Of a stretch of DNA of 64,000 nt, positions 42,310 through 50,123 are shown one piece after another. Within the stretch, counting starts at the first letter, position 1. The number at the start of each line of letters is the position of its first letter. Location of the stretch: contig JAHJNN010000017.1 of the NCBI GenBank assembly GCA_018820765.1, positions 310,001 through 374,000 on the forward strand, read 5' to 3'. The notes beneath the pieces are model-generated. The model was not told the origin of the DNA. It did no database searches and was given only the letters and a program-made list of their open reading frames with translations. The position numbers were made by a program, and so were the translations under genes. This stretch comes from Gammaproteobacteria bacterium (GTDB lineage: Bacteria; Pseudomonadota; Gammaproteobacteria; Burkholderiales; Thiobacillaceae).

Positions 42310-43902
42310 GTGCTCACCGCTTCCAGCATCACCCTGCAATTCGCCGCCAAGCCCCTGTTCGAGAACGTCAGCGTCAAGTTCGGCGACGGCAACCGCTACG
42401 GCCTGATCGGCGCCAACGGCTGCGGCAAGTCCACCTTCATGAAGATCCTCGCCGGCGAGCTGGAGCCCACCGCCGGCAACGTCTCGCTCGACCCCGGCGA
42501 GCGCATGGCCTGGCTGCGCCAGGACCAGTTCGGCTACGAGGACCAGCGCGTGCTCGACGTAGTGCTGCAGGGCCACGCCGAGATGTGGCGGGTGATGCAG
42601 GAAAAGGACGCCATCTACATGAACCCGGAGGCGAGCGAGGAGGACTACCTGCACGCCGCCGAACTCGAAGCCAAGTTCGGCGAGATGGGCGGCTACGACG
42701 CCGAGGCGCGGGCCGGCCAGCTGCTGCTGGGCGTCGGCATCCCGACCGAGCAGCACAGCGGCCCCATGAGCCAGATCGCGCCGGGTTTCAAGCTGCGGGT
42801 GCTGCTGACGCAGGCGCTGTTCTCCGACCCCGACATCCTGCTGCTGGACGAACCGACCAACAACCTCGACATCAACACCATCCGCTGGCTGGAAAACGTC
42901 CTGAACGAGAGCAAGGCCACCATCATCGTCATCTCGCACGACCGCCACTTTCTGAATCAGGTCTGTACCCACATGGCCGACCTCGACTACGGCACCATCA
43001 AGGTCTACCCCGGCAACTATGACGACTACATGCTGGCCTCGGCGCAGGTCAAGGAACGCCAGGCGTCGGCGAATGCCAAGGCCAAGGACAAGGTGGCCGA
43101 ACTGCAGGAATTCGTGCGCCGCTTCTCGGCCAACAAGTCGAAGGCGCGTCAGGCCACCAGCCGCATGAAGATGATCGACAAGATCAAGATCGAGGACTTC
43201 AAGCCCAGCTCGCGGCAGAACCCCTACATCCGCTTCGAGCCCGAAAAGGCGATGCACCGCCGCGCGCTCGAAGTCGAGGCCCTCAAGTTCGGCTACGGCG
43301 ATGCGCCGCTGTTCAGCACCCTCGGCTTTTCGCTGGAAGCCGGCGAGAAAATGGCCGTCATCGGCGGCAACGGCGTCGGCAAATCGACGCTGATGAAGCT
43401 TCTGATGGGCGAGCTTGCGCCGCAATTCGGCGAGGTGCGCTGGAGCGAGAACGCCAACGTCGGCTACTTCTCGCAGGACCACGTCAGCGATTTCGACATG
43501 GACAAGAACCTCACTGACTGGATGCACCAGTGGACGCAGCCGGGCGACGACGAGCAGGTGCTGCGCGGCATCCTCGGGCGCCTCTTGTTCTCCGGCGACG
43601 ACGTCAAGAAATCGGTGCGGGTGCTGTCCGGCGGCGAGAAGGGCCGCATGCTCTACGGCAAGCTGATGCTCGGCCGCCACAACGTGCTGGTGATGGACGA
43701 GCCGACCAACCACATGGACATGGAATCGATCGAGTCGCTGAACCTCGCGCTCGACCTGTTCAAGGGCACCGTGATCTTCGTCTCTCACGACCGCCAGTTC
43801 GTCTCCAGCCTCGCCACCCGCATCCTCGAGATCACCCCCGAGGGCGTCGAGTTCTATATGGGCAACTACGACGAGTACCTGCATTCGAAGGGCCTGGAGT
43901 GA
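42310..43902 (+). CDS. ABC-F family ATPase, YbiT type
   Basis: This 530-residue protein has two ABC domains and no membrane part. Walker A motifs are GANGCGKST and [17 protein letters not shown] and DEPTNHMD are the Walker B regions. The first signature is degenerate ([10 protein letters not shown]) and the second is LSGGEKGRM, both as in E. coli YbiT, which is also 530 residues. ABC-F proteins act on ribosomes. I chose GTG at 42310, with AGGA eight bases upstream and an N-terminus matching the family. Confidence 0.92.
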
Positions 43903-44720
43903 GCATTCCCCCCTCTCCCTCCAGGGGCGAGGGGGCGAACGATGCGCTGCGCGCGCCCAAACCGATTAACGAAGTCGTTGTCATCGGCCTGGGTCAATTG
44001 GGCCGCGTGTTCGCAGGCGGTCTGCTGCGAACGGGAAACATGGTCATCCCGGTCAACCGTGGCGACGACATGGCGACACTGGCCAAAGCGCATCCCGCAC
44101 CGGAGCTGCTGCTCATCGCGGTCGCCGAGAACGATCTGCACACCGTGCTCGCGATCCTGCCCGACGCATGGAAACCACGCGCCGCACTGATCCAGAACGA
44201 GCTCCTGCCGCGCGACTGGCAGGCGCACGGCTTTGCCGATCCCACCGTCATGTCCGTCTGGTTCGAAAAGAAGAAGGGCATCGACGCCAAGCCGCTGATC
44301 GCGTCCCCCGTGGCCGGCCCCGGCGCCGCGCTGCTGTGCCGCGCGCTGACCGCGATCGAGCTGCCCTGCCGCGAAGTGGCGCCGGGCGATGAACTGCTGT
44401 TCGAACTGGTGAGGAAGAACGTCTACATCCTCACCACCAACATCGCCGGCATCAAGACCGGCGGCACCGTGTCGCAGCTGTGGGCGCAGCACGAAGCCTT
44501 CGCGCGCCAAGTGGCAAACGAGGTGATGGACATCCAGGACGCGCTGACCGGCGTCCAGCACGACCGCGGCGCACTCATCGCCGGCATGCTCGAAGCCTTC
44601 GACGGCGACCCCGATCACGGCTGCACCGGCCGCTCCGCGCCGGCACGTCTGGCGCGTGCCCTCGCGCACGCCGACACCTTCGGGCTTGCCGTACCGACCC
44701 TGCGCTCGCTGGCGAGCTAG
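43899..44720 (+). CDS. Rossmann-fold NAD(P)-dependent oxidoreductase, ketopantoate-reductase-like
   Basis: This 273-residue protein opens with a dinucleotide-binding motif, [18 protein letters not shown], and has a helical C-terminal half, similar in plan to ketopantoate reductases, but the family catalytic motifs are not convincing. The start is GTG at 43899 overlapping the ABC-F stop (GTGA). The first 20 residues are encoded by a CCCTCTCCCTCCAGGGGCGAGGGGG hairpin-like stretch and are probably not structured. The 3' end overlaps the convergent kinase gene by four bases. Function is uncertain. Confidence 0.6.
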
Positions 44721-45598
44721 CGAATCTCGGCCAGCAGCTGCGCCATCATGCGCTGTACCTGCCCCGCGTAACCGCCGCCGAACATATTGGCATGGTTGAG
44801 GATGTGGTACAGGTTGTAGAGCGTCCTGCGCACCGCGTAGCCGGCGTCGAGCGGCCAGGCTTCGCGGTAGGCGGCATGAAAACCCGGCGCGAAGCCGCCG
44901 AAGAGTTCGCTCATTGCCAGGTCGCATTCGCGGTCGCCGTAATACGTCGCGGGGTCGAAAATCGCCGGCGAGCCGTCGTCAAGAAAACCATGGTTGCCGC
45001 CCCACAGATCGCCGTGCAGCAGCGAGGGCTGCGGCCGGTAGCCGGCGAACACACCCTCCAGCCCCGCCATCAATGCTTCGCCGTCGCGCTGCAGCGTGCC
45101 GCCATAGCCGTTCTGCGCCGCCAGCTTCAATTGAAAACCGAGCCGTTGCACGCGCCAGAATTCGACCCAGTCATCCGTCCAAGCATTCGGTTGCGGCGTG
45201 GCGCCGATCCAGTTGTCGCGCGTGCCGCCGAATTGCGCGGCGCCAACACGGTGCTGCTGCGCCAGTTGCCGACCCAGTAACACGGCGTCGCCGTGCGGCT
45301 TGAGCGGCAGGTATTCGAGCACCAGGTACGCCTGTCCCTCGGCGACGCCGTGGCAAACTCCCTGCGGCACCCGCACCGCGTTCGCCGCCGCCAGTTCGGC
45401 GAGCCCCGCCGCTTCCGCCTCGAACATCGGGAGCCGGGAAGCGGACTGGGTTTTGACGAAAAACGTGCGCGTGCCGTCGCTGAGCGTGAACGCCTCGCTG
45501 ATGTCGCCGCCGCGCACGGCCCGCGCGTTCCGCACCGTGAAAGACATCCCGCTGGCACGGCCGATGGCGGCGGCGAGTTCCGTATGAAAAACGCTCAT
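44717..45598 (-). CDS. Fructosamine/ketosamine-3-kinase family protein
   Basis: This 293-residue protein has the aminoglycoside-phosphotransferase fold of fructosamine-3-kinases. ATP-site lysine is in TFFVKTQ, the catalytic loop is LLHGDLWGGNHGF and the metal site is IFDPATYYGDRECDLAM. Bacterial members phosphorylate ketosamines for deglycation. Its start overlaps the stop of the ATP-grasp gene by four bases, so it is the last gene of the DUF971-radical SAM-ATP-grasp group, which may give it a different natural substrate. Confidence 0.87.
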   Translation of the reverse strand: MSVFHTELAAAIGRASGMSFTVRNARAVRGGDISEAFTLSDGTRTFFVKTQSASRLPMFEAEAAGLAELAAANAVRVPQGVCHGVAEGQAYLVLEYLPLKPHGDAVLLGRQLAQQHRVGAAQFGGTRDNWIGATPQPNAWTDDWVEFWRVQRLGFQLKLAAQNGYGGTLQRDGEALMAGLEGVFAGYRPQPSLLHGDLWGGNHGFLDDGSPAIFDPATYYGDRECDLAMSELFGGFAPGFHAAYREAWPLDAGYAVRRTLYNLYHILNHANMFGGGYAGQVQRMMAQLLAEIR

Positions 45599-46821
45599 GG
45601 CTCGACCAGCGGCTGGATGCGCACGCCGAGTGCCGCATGCGCGGCGCGCAATGCGGCCTCGGCCTGCTGCGGGGTGGCGGCGTGGCTGAAGATGAAACCC
45701 AGATAGCCCGCGCCCTCGGGCGGCGGCGCCACCAGCTGACCGGGCGGCGCGGTGATCTCGACGCCGCTGATATCCGGAACGGCCCGCGCTTCGTCCTGGC
45801 CGTCGACCCCGTGAAAAATCCCGCTCGCCGGGATCGGAATCATCATCACCCCGGCGGCGCTGCCGTTCGCCGGCGCCGGCAGCGGCAGAGGCAGGCCGAC
45901 GGCATGGCGCAGCACGATTTCCGCGCTGTCCATGCCGAGCGTGGCGGCGAGCACCCGCCCGCACAGACCGCCGATGCCGCGTGGCGCGATTTCGAGCAGC
46001 CACACACCGGCATCGTTGACGCGCGCCTCGGCATGGATCACGCCCTCGGTGACGCCGGCGGCCACGCAAACACGCTCAGCCGCGGCGGCGAACTCGCACT
46101 GCGTGGCGTCCGGCAGGCGCGAGGGCGTGATGTACAACGTTTCCTCGAAATAGGGTCCGTCGAGCGGGTCGGGCTTGTCGAACACGGCGAGCACCCGCAG
46201 AACGCCGCCGGACAGCACGCCGTCGAGTGCAACCTCGACGCCGGGGATGAAGCGTTCGACCAGCAGATCGTCGGCATCGCGCTGCGCGCGCGCCTGGATG
46301 CGCTGCACCTGACGCAGCGCCCGCAACAACTGGTTGACATCGTTGGCGCGAATCACGCCGCGGCTGGCGTTCAGCCGGCGCGCCTTCACCACCAGCGGAA
46401 AACCCGGCGCCGCAGCGGCTTCCAACGCCTCTTCGTGCACCCGGGCAAATGCGGGATGCGGCAGGCCGATCACCTGCTGCAGCCGGCGGAAGCGCAGCTT
46501 GTCGGTGAGCGTGGCCACCGCATCCGGCGGATTGCCCGGCAGCTTTAGCGCCGCGCGAAGCTGTGCCGCCAGCGCCTGCCCGTGATCGTCCACCGCCAGC
46601 ACCGCATCGACGGGTTGCTCCAGCGCCTCCAGCACCTGCGGCAACGCAATCTCAGGCTGGTCGAACGGCACGCTCATCAGCGGCGGCAAGCCCCAGCCGG
46701 ATGCCAGCCGATGGCAGTAATCGGCGCAGGCGACAAGCTCGATATCCAGCCGCGCGGCGGCGGCGATGAAGTCCTGGTTGGCGTAGCCCGCGGCGGGGAG
46801 GAGCAGCAGAAGGCGCGGCAT
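45595..46821 (-). CDS. ATP-grasp ligase
   Basis: This 408-residue protein has an ATP-grasp fold: N-terminal Rossmann-like part (MPRLLLLLPAAGYANQDFIAAA), ATP-binding LVVKARRLNASRGV, DDLLVERFIPGVEVALDGVL, and metal-binding HAEARVNDAGVWLLEIAPRGIGG. It is like carboxylate-amine ligases that join amino acids or peptides; substrate is unknown. It starts six bases after the radical SAM gene stop and overlaps the kinase gene downstream by ATGA. Confidence 0.85.
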   Translation of the reverse strand: MPRLLLLLPAAGYANQDFIAAAARLDIELVACADYCHRLASGWGLPPLMSVPFDQPEIALPQVLEALEQPVDAVLAVDDHGQALAAQLRAALKLPGNPPDAVATLTDKLRFRRLQQVIGLPHPAFARVHEEALEAAAAPGFPLVVKARRLNASRGVIRANDVNQLLRALRQVQRIQARAQRDADDLLVERFIPGVEVALDGVLSGGVLRVLAVFDKPDPLDGPYFEETLYITPSRLPDATQCEFAAAAERVCVAAGVTEGVIHAEARVNDAGVWLLEIAPRGIGGLCGRVLAATLGMDSAEIVLRHAVGLPLPLPAPANGSAAGVMMIPIPASGIFHGVDGQDEARAVPDISGVEITAPPGQLVAPPPEGAGYLGFIFSHAATPQQAEAALRAAHAALGVRIQPLVEP

Positions 46822-46827
46822 ATGCGA

Positions 46828-48240
46828 TCAGAAGGATGCGAGCTGGGTTTCGGTCGGCTCGGCGCAGCAATACCACGGCTCGGAGTGGTGCGGGATGGCG
46901 TCGCCGAACTGCGTGGGGTCGAGCGGCGGTGCTGCTTCGCCCAGCGCAGCATGGGTGCGCGCCCAGAGGCCGGCGAACACCTCGGCGCGCGGCAGCGCGG
47001 CTTTTTCCGCATCCATCACCCAGGCCATGATGTCGCGTTGCAGCGCGTCGACACGCGGGTCGTCGGCCTGCCACGGATAGCCCAGCATGGCCTCGTCGAA
47101 GGCGCCGACGCGCGCCGCAAAATCCGGCAGTTGCATCAGATACGAACCCTGCGGCACCAGGAGACGGATCGCCAGCTGCACCGGTGGCACCGCTTCAACC
47201 AAGTGAAGTCGCAGCAAGGTTGCGAGCAGGTCGCGATAACCCGCCAGCGTGGTCCACGGCGTGAACGGCACGAAGGTAGGCGCCAGCGCAATGCCGAGCG
47301 CACGGCAATGTGCCAGCACCGTCTCGAAATCCGCGTGGGCGTGGCCCTTGGCCAGTTTGTCGAGGATGGCGTCGTCGACCGACTCGACCGCGGTGACGAT
47401 GAACAGCAGGCCGCATTGCTGGAGTCGCGGCAGCAGTTCGGCGTGACTCAGCAGGTGCTCGACCTTGATCGTCGCATCCCAGGAGAGATCGGGAAAACGC
47501 GCGTGCAGCGCCTCGGCGACCTTCAGCGCATGGGTCGGGCCGTTGAGAAAATCGGGGTCGCCGAAGCTGATGTGCGCAGCGCCCACGGCGACCTGCTGCG
47601 CGATGTCGGCGATCACCATCTCTACCGGGACGACGCGGAACATGCCCTCGTACACCGGCACCACCGGGCAGTGACGGCACAGGTGCTTGCAGCCGCGGCT
47701 GGCTTCGGCAAAGCCGGTGATCTTTTGCGTGCCGTCGGCCAGGATCAGGTTGGCGTAGCGTTGCAGTGCGGGCAGGCCGCGGCGGTCGGGCAACAGGAAT
47801 TCGATCTTGTCGCGGCGCACCACGGCATCGGCCGGCGCGACCCCGGACTGCACCCAGGCCAGCAGATCGGGTTCGGACTCGCCGCCGAAGATCGCCTCCA
47901 CGCCGAGCGTTTTCAGCCACGCCGCGTTGACCGGCGCATACAGGCCGAACGCGGCGATGCGGGCGCGCGGCGCCAGCGTGCGGAGTTTCGGCAGCGCGGC
48001 GGCGGCGATCCGCGTCGCGGTGTGCATGCCGAGATAGATCGCCACGAACTCGGCGTGCGCAAACGTGGCGGGGTCGAGTTGCTGCTGCGACAGGTCGACG
48101 CACATCACCGCCATCCCGGCGCGCCCGAACCACGCCGCCGGCTGCGCCAGATTGAAGGGCTGCCGGCCCAGTTCATAGGGACTGACCAAAACAACGCGCG
48201 CCCCGGAGGGCGCGCAGGGTGTTGCGGTGCAGGCCGTCAT
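46828..48240 (-). CDS. B12-binding radical SAM protein with CCAEP tail
   Basis: This 470-residue protein has an N-terminal cobalamin-binding-like domain (residues 15-125) and a radical SAM domain with CKHLCRHC, cysteines 184, 188 and 191 for the 4Fe-4S cluster. The C-terminus reads EPWYCCAEPTETQLASF, with C458 and C459. I recognise this as the family described in annotation as CUAEP/CCAEP-tail radical SAM (seleno)proteins, where the second tail residue pair can contain selenocysteine; here both are cysteine. The reaction is unknown. The ATG at 48240 is ten bases after the DUF971 stop. Confidence 0.85.
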   Translation of the reverse strand: MTACTATPCAPSGARVVLVSPYELGRQPFNLAQPAAWFGRAGMAVMCVDLSQQQLDPATFAHAEFVAIYLGMHTATRIAAAALPKLRTLAPRARIAAFGLYAPVNAAWLKTLGVEAIFGGESEPDLLAWVQSGVAPADAVVRRDKIEFLLPDRRGLPALQRYANLILADGTQKITGFAEASRGCKHLCRHCPVVPVYEGMFRVVPVEMVIADIAQQVAVGAAHISFGDPDFLNGPTHALKVAEALHARFPDLSWDATIKVEHLLSHAELLPRLQQCGLLFIVTAVESVDDAILDKLAKGHAHADFETVLAHCRALGIALAPTFVPFTPWTTLAGYRDLLATLLRLHLVEAVPPVQLAIRLLVPQGSYLMQLPDFAARVGAFDEAMLGYPWQADDPRVDALQRDIMAWVMDAEKAALPRAEVFAGLWARTHAALGEAAPPLDPTQFGDAIPHHSEPWYCCAEPTETQLASF

Positions 48241-48250
48241 GGCAAGCGGC

Positions 48251-48649
48251 TTACTTGGCCTTGGGACGCTGCTCGAACATCTTGGAAATGCCGGGCTCAC
48301 GCGAGGCGCCGGCGGCTTCCATGCGCTTGAGGTACTCGTCCCACAGCGCGGCCTGGTTGACGCCGAGATCGTGCAGATACTCCCAGGAATAAATCCCGGT
48401 GTCGTGACCGTCGGAGAAGAAGAAGTTGATGCCGTACAGGCCGACCGGCTCGGCGGCATTGATCAGCACTTCGCGCTTGCCGACCTGCAGCACTTCCTGA
48501 CCGGGGCCGTGGCCGCGCACTTCGGCGGACGGCGAGTAGACGCGGAGGAACTCGAACGGCAGTTCGAAACGCGTGCCGTCGGTGAATGCGATTTCAAGCT
48601 TGCGCGAAGCCTGGTGCAGTTTGATGTCGGTGGGGGTGGGTATGGCCAT
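48251..48649 (-). CDS. DUF971 (GBBH-like N-terminal domain) protein
   Basis: This 132-residue protein is a DUF971 member, a small domain also found at the N-terminus of gamma-butyrobetaine hydroxylases, with LEIAFTDGTRFELPFEFLRVYSPSAEV and INFFFSDGHDTGIYSWEYLHDLG. In betaproteobacteria such genes often lie near ubiE; here the radical SAM operon follows at once. A role in Fe-S or cofactor handling has been suggested for relatives but I cannot show it. The ATG at 48649 fits the family start. Confidence 0.85.
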   Translation of the reverse strand: MAIPTPTDIKLHQASRKLEIAFTDGTRFELPFEFLRVYSPSAEVRGHGPGQEVLQVGKREVLINAAEPVGLYGINFFFSDGHDTGIYSWEYLHDLGVNQAALWDEYLKRMEAAGASREPGISKMFEQRPKAK

Positions 48650-48752
48650 GATGGAAACACTCGAAATGAACGCCAGCCCGGAGTTTAAACCCGCAACGCA
48701 GAGATTAAACCCTGTCGGAACAAGGGGATGACGCACATCATGATCTGAAAAC

Positions 48753-48829
48753 TGGCGCGCCCGGCGCGATTCGAACGCACGACCCCTGCCTTCGGAGGGC
48801 AGTACTCTATCCAGCTGAGCTACGGGCGC
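48753..48829 (-). tRNA. tRNA-Arg (anticodon CCG)
   Basis: The minus strand folds into a 77-base cloverleaf including the encoded CCA: acceptor GCGCCCG with CGGGCGC, D arm GCTCAGCTGGATAGAG, anticodon stem CTGCC/GGCAG with loop CTCCGAA (anticodon CCG, reading CGG), and T loop TTCGAAT. It closely matches E. coli tRNA-Arg(CCG). It lies about 100 bp upstream of the DUF971 gene in the same direction. Confidence 0.96.
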
Positions 48830-48929
48830 CTGGAGTTTGACGGCTCCTGGGAGGGCGAAGCATAGCCGGTTTGCAAAATGGCGTCCATCCACCGCGCCCA
48901 TCGCCCTTTCCTGTCGCGGTGGCTTTCCT

Positions 48930-48935
48930 TATAAT
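48930..48935 (+). promoter_or_regulatory. Consensus -10 box upstream of cytochrome c5
   Basis: TATAAT lies 37 bp before the ATG at 48973. The -35 position (TTTCCT at 48907) is weak. It is the only evident promoter for the two-cytochrome group. Confidence 0.5.
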
Positions 48936-48972
48936 CTCGGCTTTCGATGCCACCCCCCAAGGATAATTTCTC

Positions 48973-49542
48973 ATGGCCGATTCGCACGCCAAGATGACCC
49001 AAGCCACCCCCCAGGAAGTCATCATTTCCGTTGTCGCCGGGTTGCTCGCCCCCCTGCTGGCAATTTTTCTGGTGGTTCAACTGGTGCTCAGCATTCAGGA
49101 AGAACACAAGCCCGATACCAGCAGCGAAGCCGCCCAGAAGGCCACGCTCAAGCGCATCAAGCCCTTCGCCCAGCTGGCTGCGCTCGATGCCAACGCCCCC
49201 CGGGTCGAAAAAGCCGGCCAGGAAGTCTATGACGCCGTGTGTTCCTCGTGCCATAGCACCGGCGCGCTGGGCGCGCCCAAGTTCGACAGCCGCGGCGACT
49301 GGGCCGGCCGCCTCGGCCAGGGCTACGACACCCTGATCAAGCACGCGATCGAAGGCATCCGCCAGATGCCTGCCCGCGGCGGCGACAGCGATTTGTCCGA
49401 CATCGAAGTGGCACGCGCGGTGGCCTACATGGCCAACTCGGCCGGCGCCAAGTTCAAGGAGCCGGCCGCGCCTGCCCCGGTTGAGCCCGCAAAGCCGGCC
49501 GAGCCCGCAAAGGCGGTGACCGCAGAAGTCAAAAAGCAGTAA
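48973..49542 (+). CDS. Membrane-anchored cytochrome c5
   Basis: This 189-residue monohaem cytochrome has an N-terminal membrane helix (residues 15-40), haem motif CSSCH at 90-94 and a c5-type segment GALGAPKFDSRGDWAGRLGQGYDTL, then IRQMPARGGDSDLSD with the probable axial methionine. A Pro/Ala/Lys-rich tail follows. It probably moves electrons at the periplasmic membrane face. A second c5-like lipoprotein cytochrome gene follows 62 bp later. Confidence 0.92.
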   Translation: MADSHAKMTQATPQEVIISVVAGLLAPLLAIFLVVQLVLSIQEEHKPDTSSEAAQKATLKRIKPFAQLAALDANAPRVEKAGQEVYDAVCSSCHSTGALGAPKFDSRGDWAGRLGQGYDTLIKHAIEGIRQMPARGGDSDLSDIEVARAVAYMANSAGAKFKEPAAPAPVEPAKPAEPAKAVTAEVKKQ

Positions 49543-49604: not shown

Positions 49605-50123
49605 ATGAACCACACCGCCACTTTCTTGATCGTCGCGTCGGCCGTAGCGCTGTTGGCCTGCGGCAAGACCGAACAAGCGCCCGCGCCGGCCGCTCAGCCG
49701 CCTGTGGCGGAGGCCCCGCCGGCGCAGCCCGTTCCTGAGCCGGCTGCGCCGGTCGTCGAGACCCCGTCTGCCGAAGCCGTCCCGCCCGCACAGCCCGCAC
49801 CCGCGCAGGCACCGTCCGTTGCGGCAAGCACGCCGGAGACGGCCGCCGCACCCGAGGTCGCAAGCGCACCCTCGCCCGACCTCGCACGCGGCGAGCACAT
49901 CTACCGTCAGGCCTGCGCGTTCTGCCACGACAAGGGCGTGGCGGGTGCGCCGAAAATCGGCGATGCCGCCGCCTGGAGCCCGCGCCTGGCGCAAGGAATG
50001 GATACGCTTTATGCCGTCTCGCTGCGCGGCAAGGGTGCGATGCCTGCCAAAGGCGGCAATCCCGCACTGGCGGATGCCGACGTCAAGGCCGCGGTCGACT
50101 TCATCGTCGCGCAGTCGCGCTAG
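49605..50123 (+). CDS. Lipoprotein cytochrome c5
   Basis: This 172-residue protein has lipobox LLAC (cysteine 19), a 70-residue Pro/Ala/Glu-rich linker and a c5-type haem domain with CAFCH at 104-108, GVAGAPKIGDAAAWSPRLAQG and GAMPAKGGNP (axial methionine). The long flexible linker would let the haem domain reach partners from a lipid anchor, in place of the membrane helix used by the preceding cytochrome. The two are paralogues. Confidence 0.88.
   Translation: MNHTATFLIVASAVALLACGKTEQAPAPAAQPPVAEAPPAQPVPEPAAPVVETPSAEAVPPAQPAPAQAPSVAASTPETAAAPEVASAPSPDLARGEHIYRQACAFCHDKGVAGAPKIGDAAAWSPRLAQGMDTLYAVSLRGKGAMPAKGGNPALADADVKAAVDFIVAQSR

Follow-up and report, generated by a model that had tools for sequence, protein, structure and literature searches.

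A 64,000-nucleotide stretch from a Gammaproteobacteria bacterium of the family Thiobacillaceae (contig JAHJNN010000017.1, positions 310,001 to 374,000; hereafter the window) carries on its minus strand four tightly packed genes, encoding a DUF971 protein, a radical S-adenosylmethionine (SAM) protein with a CCAEP tail, an ATP-grasp ligase and a fructosamine-kinase family protein. The locus raises two questions: which of these proteins act together, and what they make. An earlier reading of the window, here called the original prediction, took all four as one operon for a biosynthetic or repair pathway with an unknown product. Comparison with related loci retains this idea for two of the genes: the functional unit, as deduced from gene content, is the radical SAM protein with the ligase, and the kinase and the DUF971 protein are residents of the locus. 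Our preferred reading, to which we assign a probability of roughly 0.42, is that the pair forms a biosynthetic cassette serving iron or iron-sulfur (Fe-S) cluster upkeep, by amino-acid synthesis of the ArsL kind followed by ligation.

The partition of the four genes is seen most directly in Thiobacillus, whose records are the nearest named relatives of the locus. Among the 25 Thiobacillus genomes searched for both members of the pair (G000-G024; G and L numbers denote genomes and loci), 12 hold the radical SAM and the ligase gene and 13 hold neither. DUF971 and the fructosamine kinase are each present in 30 of 31 Thiobacillus genomes irrespective of the pair, and neither was seen in G023; six of the 31 (G1125-G1130) lie outside the genome-wide radical SAM search. 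Measured between matched stretches, the distance from DUF971 to the kinase is 50-105 bp in all 17 genomes that lack the ligase and 2647-2661 bp in all 12 measurable genomes that have it, G003 being left out of the count as its ligase-bearing locus is split over contigs. The four genes keep this order in 18 of the 20 Thiobacillus-type loci, L039 breaking off within the radical SAM gene and the middle of L024 being unread. One culturable carrier of the cassette is T. thioparus DSM 505 (L032). A DUF971 tree of 30 genomes shows the cassette switching between presence and absence at least four times; it therefore came or went repeatedly, although the tree does not separate gain from loss.

Wider genome surveys show the predicted radical SAM and L-amino acid ligase (LAL)-type ATP-grasp proteins to be co-inherited. 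The radical SAM family was called at E values up to 1e-40, and the curated NF040546 cut-off was also applied. It is present in 23 of 369 genomes of the window's class (23 over the curated cut-off), 40 of 247 in the phylum of G410 (37 over it), 58 of 221 in the phylum of G408 (57) and 21 of 246 in the phylum of G412 (16). The first of these phyla is Acidobacteriota by its named locus and holds L044 (Acidobacteriia); the other two hold L042 (Chloroflexi) and L046 (Acidimicrobiia), respectively. Co-occurrence with the ligase was tested in the class and in the phylum of G410. In that phylum, 40 genomes have the radical SAM gene, 42 the ligase and 39 both, leaving the ligase in three of 207 genomes without the radical SAM gene; the single radical SAM genome without a ligase, G512, has a partial radical SAM match. 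The corresponding numbers for the class are 23, 66 and 19, with the ligase in 47 of 346 genomes that lack the radical SAM gene. Fisher tests, which ignore kinship, give 1e-40 for the phylum and 3e-12 for the class.

Gene neighbourhoods place the pair in a cellular context. The survey read 115 loci, which form 88 groups at 72% identity with residual relatedness among them, and 87 groups after removal of the ArsL-type outgroup L177. Neighbours within 3.5 kb of the radical SAM gene were counted with profiles run on all stop-to-stop frames. The profile thresholds (for example, 100 bits for NfuA, 100 for YggX and 250 for the ligase) were fixed after the scores had been seen, and the profiles were built partly from the first-found neighbours, which biases the counts toward these. 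The ligase is present in 48 of the 87 groups, an NfuA-type gene in 29, YggX in 27 and SUF genes in two (L045; L047/L048). Chance would place a given single-copy gene in about 0.2 of 87 groups, an estimate based on ~8 genes per stretch and ~3500 per genome, with no random loci drawn. Counting NfuA, YggX and SUF together as iron or Fe-S genes and setting the Thiobacillus DUF971 aside, 58 of the 87 groups carry one close to the radical SAM gene, including 21 of 27, 21 of 24 and 10 of 18 groups in three samples outside the window's class. Outside Thiobacillus, the predicted pair is repeatedly found beside Fe-S carriers of the NfuA or A type, beside YggX, an iron-trafficking protein, or beside the SUF operon, and we regard the iron/Fe-S association as very probably a biological fact. 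The original prediction had proposed a neighbourhood survey of CUAEP/CCAEP-tail proteins for ATP-grasp and fructosamine-kinase genes; the ATP-grasp half of that expectation holds, and the kinase is found in one group, Thiobacillus itself. With DUF971 in two groups, neither of these genes keeps the place in the set that it had been given.

Less frequent neighbours are a formyltransferase (12 groups, a single phylum), DUF169 (10), a POT peptide transporter (seven), an aminotransferase (five) and a cystathionine-synthase-like protein (four). One example of each neighbour was run against Pfam to check its name (Iron_traffic, NifU, Fe-S_biosyn, Formyl_trans_N, DUF169, PTR2, FeS_assembly_P, SUFBD_core, ABC_tran, Aminotran_5 and NifU_N), and the names of the aminotransferase and cystathionine-synthase clusters were assigned by reading. 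In one clade (L185, L186, L188 and L193), aminotransferase-like and cystathionine-synthase-like genes run divergently to NfuA and the radical SAM gene, which may hint that the pathway involves a sulfur amino acid.

The iron and Fe-S genes cluster next to the radical SAM gene and thin out within the searched stretch: 34 NfuA matches lie within 1.7 kb, two at 1.7-3.5 kb and one beyond, and the YggX matches number 30, three and none (median shorter flank, 6.9 kb). At the chosen thresholds, full NfuA-type proteins and YggX never occur together at one radical SAM gene; smaller A-type carriers stand beside YggX in L084 and L087, at 66-68 bits and under the NfuA line. On a quick tree with long branches for L254 and L177, the partner switches between NfuA and YggX at least four times, a lower bound only. 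Gene order and orientation vary between clades. The radical SAM gene lies 3' of sufB-C-D-S-U-T on the same strand in L045, L047 and L048 (Pfam on L047), NfuA is divergent from the ligase and radical SAM genes in L046, and L178 holds, on one strand, genes for an A-type carrier, DUF59/ParA, a separate DUF971 protein with CPCAAC, the radical SAM protein, NfuA, DUF169 and aconitase. The DUF59/ParA and DUF971 genes that immediately precede the radical SAM gene in L178 recall HCF101/Mrp-type Fe-S carriers (DUF59-ParA-DUF971); in the excerpt consulted, HCF101 is described with the same domain set and the CxCxxC motif (PMC7980591). The Thiobacillus DUF971 differs from these carriers in having no cysteine and in being a resident of the locus.

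The ligase itself carries an ATP-grasp domain and the LAL C-terminal domain, and a Pfam scan found no Fe-S domain in it. Among solved structures, the family profile is best matched by the L-amino acid ligase BL00235 (3vot, 246 bits), and BacD scores 113 bits; both are ATP-grasp ligases. BL00235 and BacD make ordinary dipeptides or bacilysin, and we know of no Fe-S neighbours for either. Twenty ligase loci without the radical SAM gene were read, mostly picked for long flanks (19 of the 47 in the class and one of the three in the phylum of G410); in this set the ligase of L262 is called in two pieces and L268 is cut by a contig end. Of the 19 class loci, 16 have an A-type carrier just upstream of the lone ligase and in the same orientation, and YggX is found within five genes in 12 of the 20 loci. 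The iron/Fe-S link therefore attaches to the ligase no less than to the radical SAM protein. Across L258-L276, the A-type carriers upstream of the ligase combine GGGC[GS]GM with a C-G-x-C tail that in many cases closes with Gly-Cys. Six of the 20 loci have a radical SAM gene nearby that we take, by its look, to be AmmeMemoRadiSam-like.

The radical SAM protein of the window is a member of NF040546 (rSAM_CUAEP), matching model positions 1-467 of 468 at 577 bits, above the cut-off of 500, and is the single match in its own genome. Both sequence marks named in the original prediction, CKHLCRHC and a CC-A-E-P tail, are there, and the C[CU]AEP tail takes the Cys form, WYCCAEP. The tail pattern [TSND]E-x-W-[YFH]-C-[C/stop]-[AS]-[EA]-P fits 109 of 114 family loci; of the misfits, L085 and L206 have C[C/U]AEP with another preceding letter, L189 runs off its contig, and L093 and L205 either go out of frame ahead of the tail or show no tail. 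A stop codon occupies the second tail position in 55 of the 109 members and is TGA in every case, which we read as Cys-selenocysteine (Cys-Sec); these forms number 24, 19 and 12 in the three samples outside the class, and none in the class. The 48 nt of RNA from the TGA codon fold with a mean of -16.3 kcal/mol versus -11.5 in Cys forms, a difference uncorrected for composition (G+C 0.64 versus 0.61). In the 109 aligned members, the invariant cysteines are Cys 184, 188 and 191 and the tail pair, the pair partly through selection by the pattern; the next most conserved cysteines are kept in 97, 71 and 60 members.

An AlphaFold2 model of the protein (mean predicted local distance difference test score, 87) places a Rossmann domain ahead of the radical SAM barrel, the arrangement of cobalamin-dependent radical SAM enzymes. 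The B12-type domain of the original prediction stands in this respect as a fold. The cobalamin motif DxHxxG is absent from the window protein, and a pattern search over residues 1-170 found it in one of 109 members; the motif gives no support to a cobalamin-dependent enzyme, which is still conceivable. The closest fold found by Foldseek is that of AprD4 (PDB 6fd2, template modelling score 0.68), followed by those of the cobalamin-dependent radical SAM enzymes TsrM, OxsB and TokK. AprD4 shares the Rossmann domain and the barrel, but it is a sugar dehydratase of 20% identity, and we know of no CC tail in it.

Family models show the predicted CCAEP-tail protein to be a sister of ArsL. ArsL (NF040542) is the second-best NCBIfam family of the window protein, at 214 bits and under the cut-off of 450, so that the protein falls outside that family; L177 is ArsL by model, at 696 bits, and scores 361 bits to NF040546. 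The protein shares with ArsL, which serves synthesis of the arsenic antibiotic arsinothricin, a three-Cys site, a C-terminal vicinal Cys pair (the CC of L177 aligns with the CCAEP-family tail pair) and a nearby ATP-grasp gene. Such a gene is present in three of the four ArsL-type plasmid clusters examined, of 16 ArsL/RCCLKC records listed, and absent from the fourth. The two differ in that the RCCLKC tail of ArsL is replaced by CCAEP in the window protein, the CC pair alone being common to both, and in arsenic gene context, which is expected of ArsL; family scans of the four genes here and of their convergent neighbour found no ars family (the rest of the window lay outside this search). In the portion of the source consulted, ArsL is predicted to add the aminocarboxypropyl (ACP) group of SAM to arsenite (PMC8552651). 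The ArsL-type arsenic plasmid clusters of L177, L308 and L310 hold an ATP-grasp gene together with a GTP-binding protein, which possibly points to a peptide form of an arsenic amino acid.

For the window's pair, we propose that the radical SAM protein would add an ACP radical to a soft atom bound by the tail Cys pair, yielding an amino acid. The ATP-grasp enzyme would then activate a carboxylate and join this amino acid to a second one, and the dipeptide-like product would bind, carry or protect iron or Fe-S clusters alongside NfuA/A-type carriers or YggX. In Thiobacillus, the putative cassette is present or absent between two resident genes. This chemistry of ACP addition, ligation and product use is put forward tentatively, at somewhat less than even odds, on top of an association drawn from sequence comparison. 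Rather unlikely is the wider proposal that, across four or more phyla, bacteria produce a low-molecular-weight iron or Fe-S cluster ligand, a metabolite not yet described and derived from an amino acid, through ACP-radical addition to a soft atom on the Cys-Cys or Cys-Sec tail and subsequent ATP-grasp ligation, with NfuA/A-type carriers or YggX handing it over.

Several points weigh against a cassette for iron and Fe-S upkeep. The main weak points are the link in the window's own class, the weakest of the samples, the missing iron genes at the window's own locus, and the independent life of the ligase apart from the radical SAM gene. In the class, no ligase was found in four of 23 radical SAM genomes and no radical SAM gene in 47 of 66 ligase genomes, such genome absences being soft (for both genes, in the class and in the phylum of G410, scoring was confined to the 4 to 7 best first-look candidates of each genome). 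Only four of 18 groups of the class have the ligase within 3.5 kb, and six of 18 have an iron or Fe-S gene. Overall, 29 of the 87 groups show no iron or Fe-S gene nearby, 12 of them represented solely by loci with under 3.5 kb of flank on one side, and the window's own locus has none except the cysteine-free DUF971. As for the ArsL comparison, the tail alignment spans a large gap and is based on one ArsL protein, the arsenic-cluster ligase of L177 is only 22% identical to the window-type ligase, and the ACP chemistry of ArsL is itself a prediction in the portion of the source consulted (PMC8552651).

Five other explanations were weighed. The one that survives best, though unlikely, has the radical SAM protein sacrifice an Fe-S cluster to insert sulfur or selenium, with NfuA or an A-type carrier then rebuilding that cluster. 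NfuA rebuilds the Fe-S cluster of lipoyl synthase, and the NfuA-type genes in a third of the groups, like the SUF operons of L045, L047 and L048, would suit such a role. The usual second cluster site of three cysteines, as in lipoyl synthase, is however missing from the 109 aligned members, unless other residues serve, and the A-type carrier and YggX accompany the ligase where the radical SAM gene was not found. Protein modification, in which the ligase would add an amino acid, perhaps the radical SAM product, to the neighbouring carrier or YggX, strikes us as quite improbable. Many neighbouring NfuA proteins end in NPYYxxxK(K), many YggX proteins in PPxxxPPxAK and the A-type carriers in Gly-Cys, and the separation of NfuA from YggX at the radical SAM gene also speaks for it. 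These three tails are unlike one another, in a comparison that covers the neighbouring proteins, and both PF18603 and 3vot point to small-molecule dipeptide ligases.

A specialised metabolite with no tie to iron, for example an organoarsenical or its peptide, would accord with the sister position of ArsL and with the ATP-grasp genes of its plasmid clusters; the absence of any ars gene recognised by eye among the neighbour clusters, and the fact that the recurrent named neighbours are iron and Fe-S genes, make it very unlikely. Even less credible is that the Fe-S genes are present merely to mature the radical SAM protein, a [4Fe-4S] enzyme by its CxxxCxxC motif, for carrier and YggX also accompany the ligase, in which Pfam finds no Fe-S domain, in genomes where no radical SAM gene was found. 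Least tenable is a single four-gene pathway with an amino-sugar kinase, for example for deglycation or repair, as the original prediction had it: the ordered Thiobacillus-type loci favour it, but the kinase, rejected as a pathway member, adjoins DUF971 in 17 ligase-free genomes that have both and lies near the radical SAM gene in one of 87 groups.

The radical SAM family already has a name. In the literature searched, we found no paper using the NF040546 family name (the Haft selenoprotein papers may mention it), and none joining YggX with ATP-grasp or L-amino acid ligase with 'iron-sulfur cluster assembly'. The consulted portions of two selenoprotein reviews (PMC13188914, PMC9312934) have no entry for a radical SAM/ligase set. 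The original remark that the family had a name and no function agrees with this search, in which no function for the set turned up. A named, functionless family of radical SAM selenoproteins gains a steady partner enzyme and a cell-biological context, and its 'unknown product' becomes testable through the SAM fragment made, the ligase using it and the Fe-S phenotype of loss. If the cassette for iron and Fe-S upkeep is real, small molecules would act in bacterial Fe-S trafficking beside protein carriers, chemistry of the ArsL type would extend beyond arsenic, and the product would be a missing small-molecule component of bacterial Fe-S upkeep.

The array at the locus is given in Table 1. The spacings first reported for the four genes are confirmed by reading the minus strand: 10 bp between DUF971 and the radical SAM gene, 6 bp between the latter and the ATP-grasp gene, and a 4-bp overlap (ATGA) of the ATP-grasp and kinase genes.

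Table 1. Features of the locus in window coordinates; gene coordinates include stop codons.
Feature	Position	Strand	Evidence
DUF971 protein, 132 aa, no cysteine	48251..48649	(-)	PF06155 103 bits
CCAEP-tail radical SAM protein, 470 aa, core of pair, WYCCAEP near C-terminus	46828..48240	(-)	NF040546 577 bits; PF04055
ATP-grasp ligase, L-amino acid ligase kind, 408 aa, core of pair	45595..46821	(-)	PF13535 86.8 bits, PF18603 (LAL_C2) 59 bits, both above cut-off
Fructosamine-kinase family protein	44717..45598	(-)	PF03881 353 bits, cut-off 22.4
Terminator-like hairpin, 9 pairs, then TTGTTTT, at DUF971/radical SAM joint	48195..48216	(-)	hairpin scan

The hairpin is the most-paired terminator-like site in 44400-49100, where eight such sites were found versus 3.5 expected, and it falls within the opening codons of the radical SAM gene (read as APSGARVVLV). 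Judged by eye, a similar G+C-rich hairpin stands after DUF971 in 14 of the 17 Thiobacillus sites that lack the cassette (the exceptions being G004, G010 and G014) and in all 13 inspected sites that contain it; where the cassette is present, the hairpin sequence supplies the start of the radical SAM reading frame. DUF971 may therefore be transcribed separately from the radical SAM gene. The four-gene operon of the original prediction holds as a tight same-strand array and is doubtful as a single transcription unit.

Other genes border the array. A tRNA-Arg gene (anticodon CCG; 48753-48829, minus strand), the sole tRNA found in the window, lies just upstream of DUF971 and is a possible landing site for inserted genes. 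On the other side, a convergent 272-residue protein (43902-44720, plus strand) has a nucleotide-binding look (GLGQLG) and matched no Pfam or NCBIfam family at 0.001; 15 of 20 Thiobacillus-type loci are flanked by a relative. Two small proteins with CxxCH haem motifs are encoded divergently from the locus (48973-49542 and 49605-50123, plus strand), and a relative of the first occupies the same place in most Thiobacillus-type loci.

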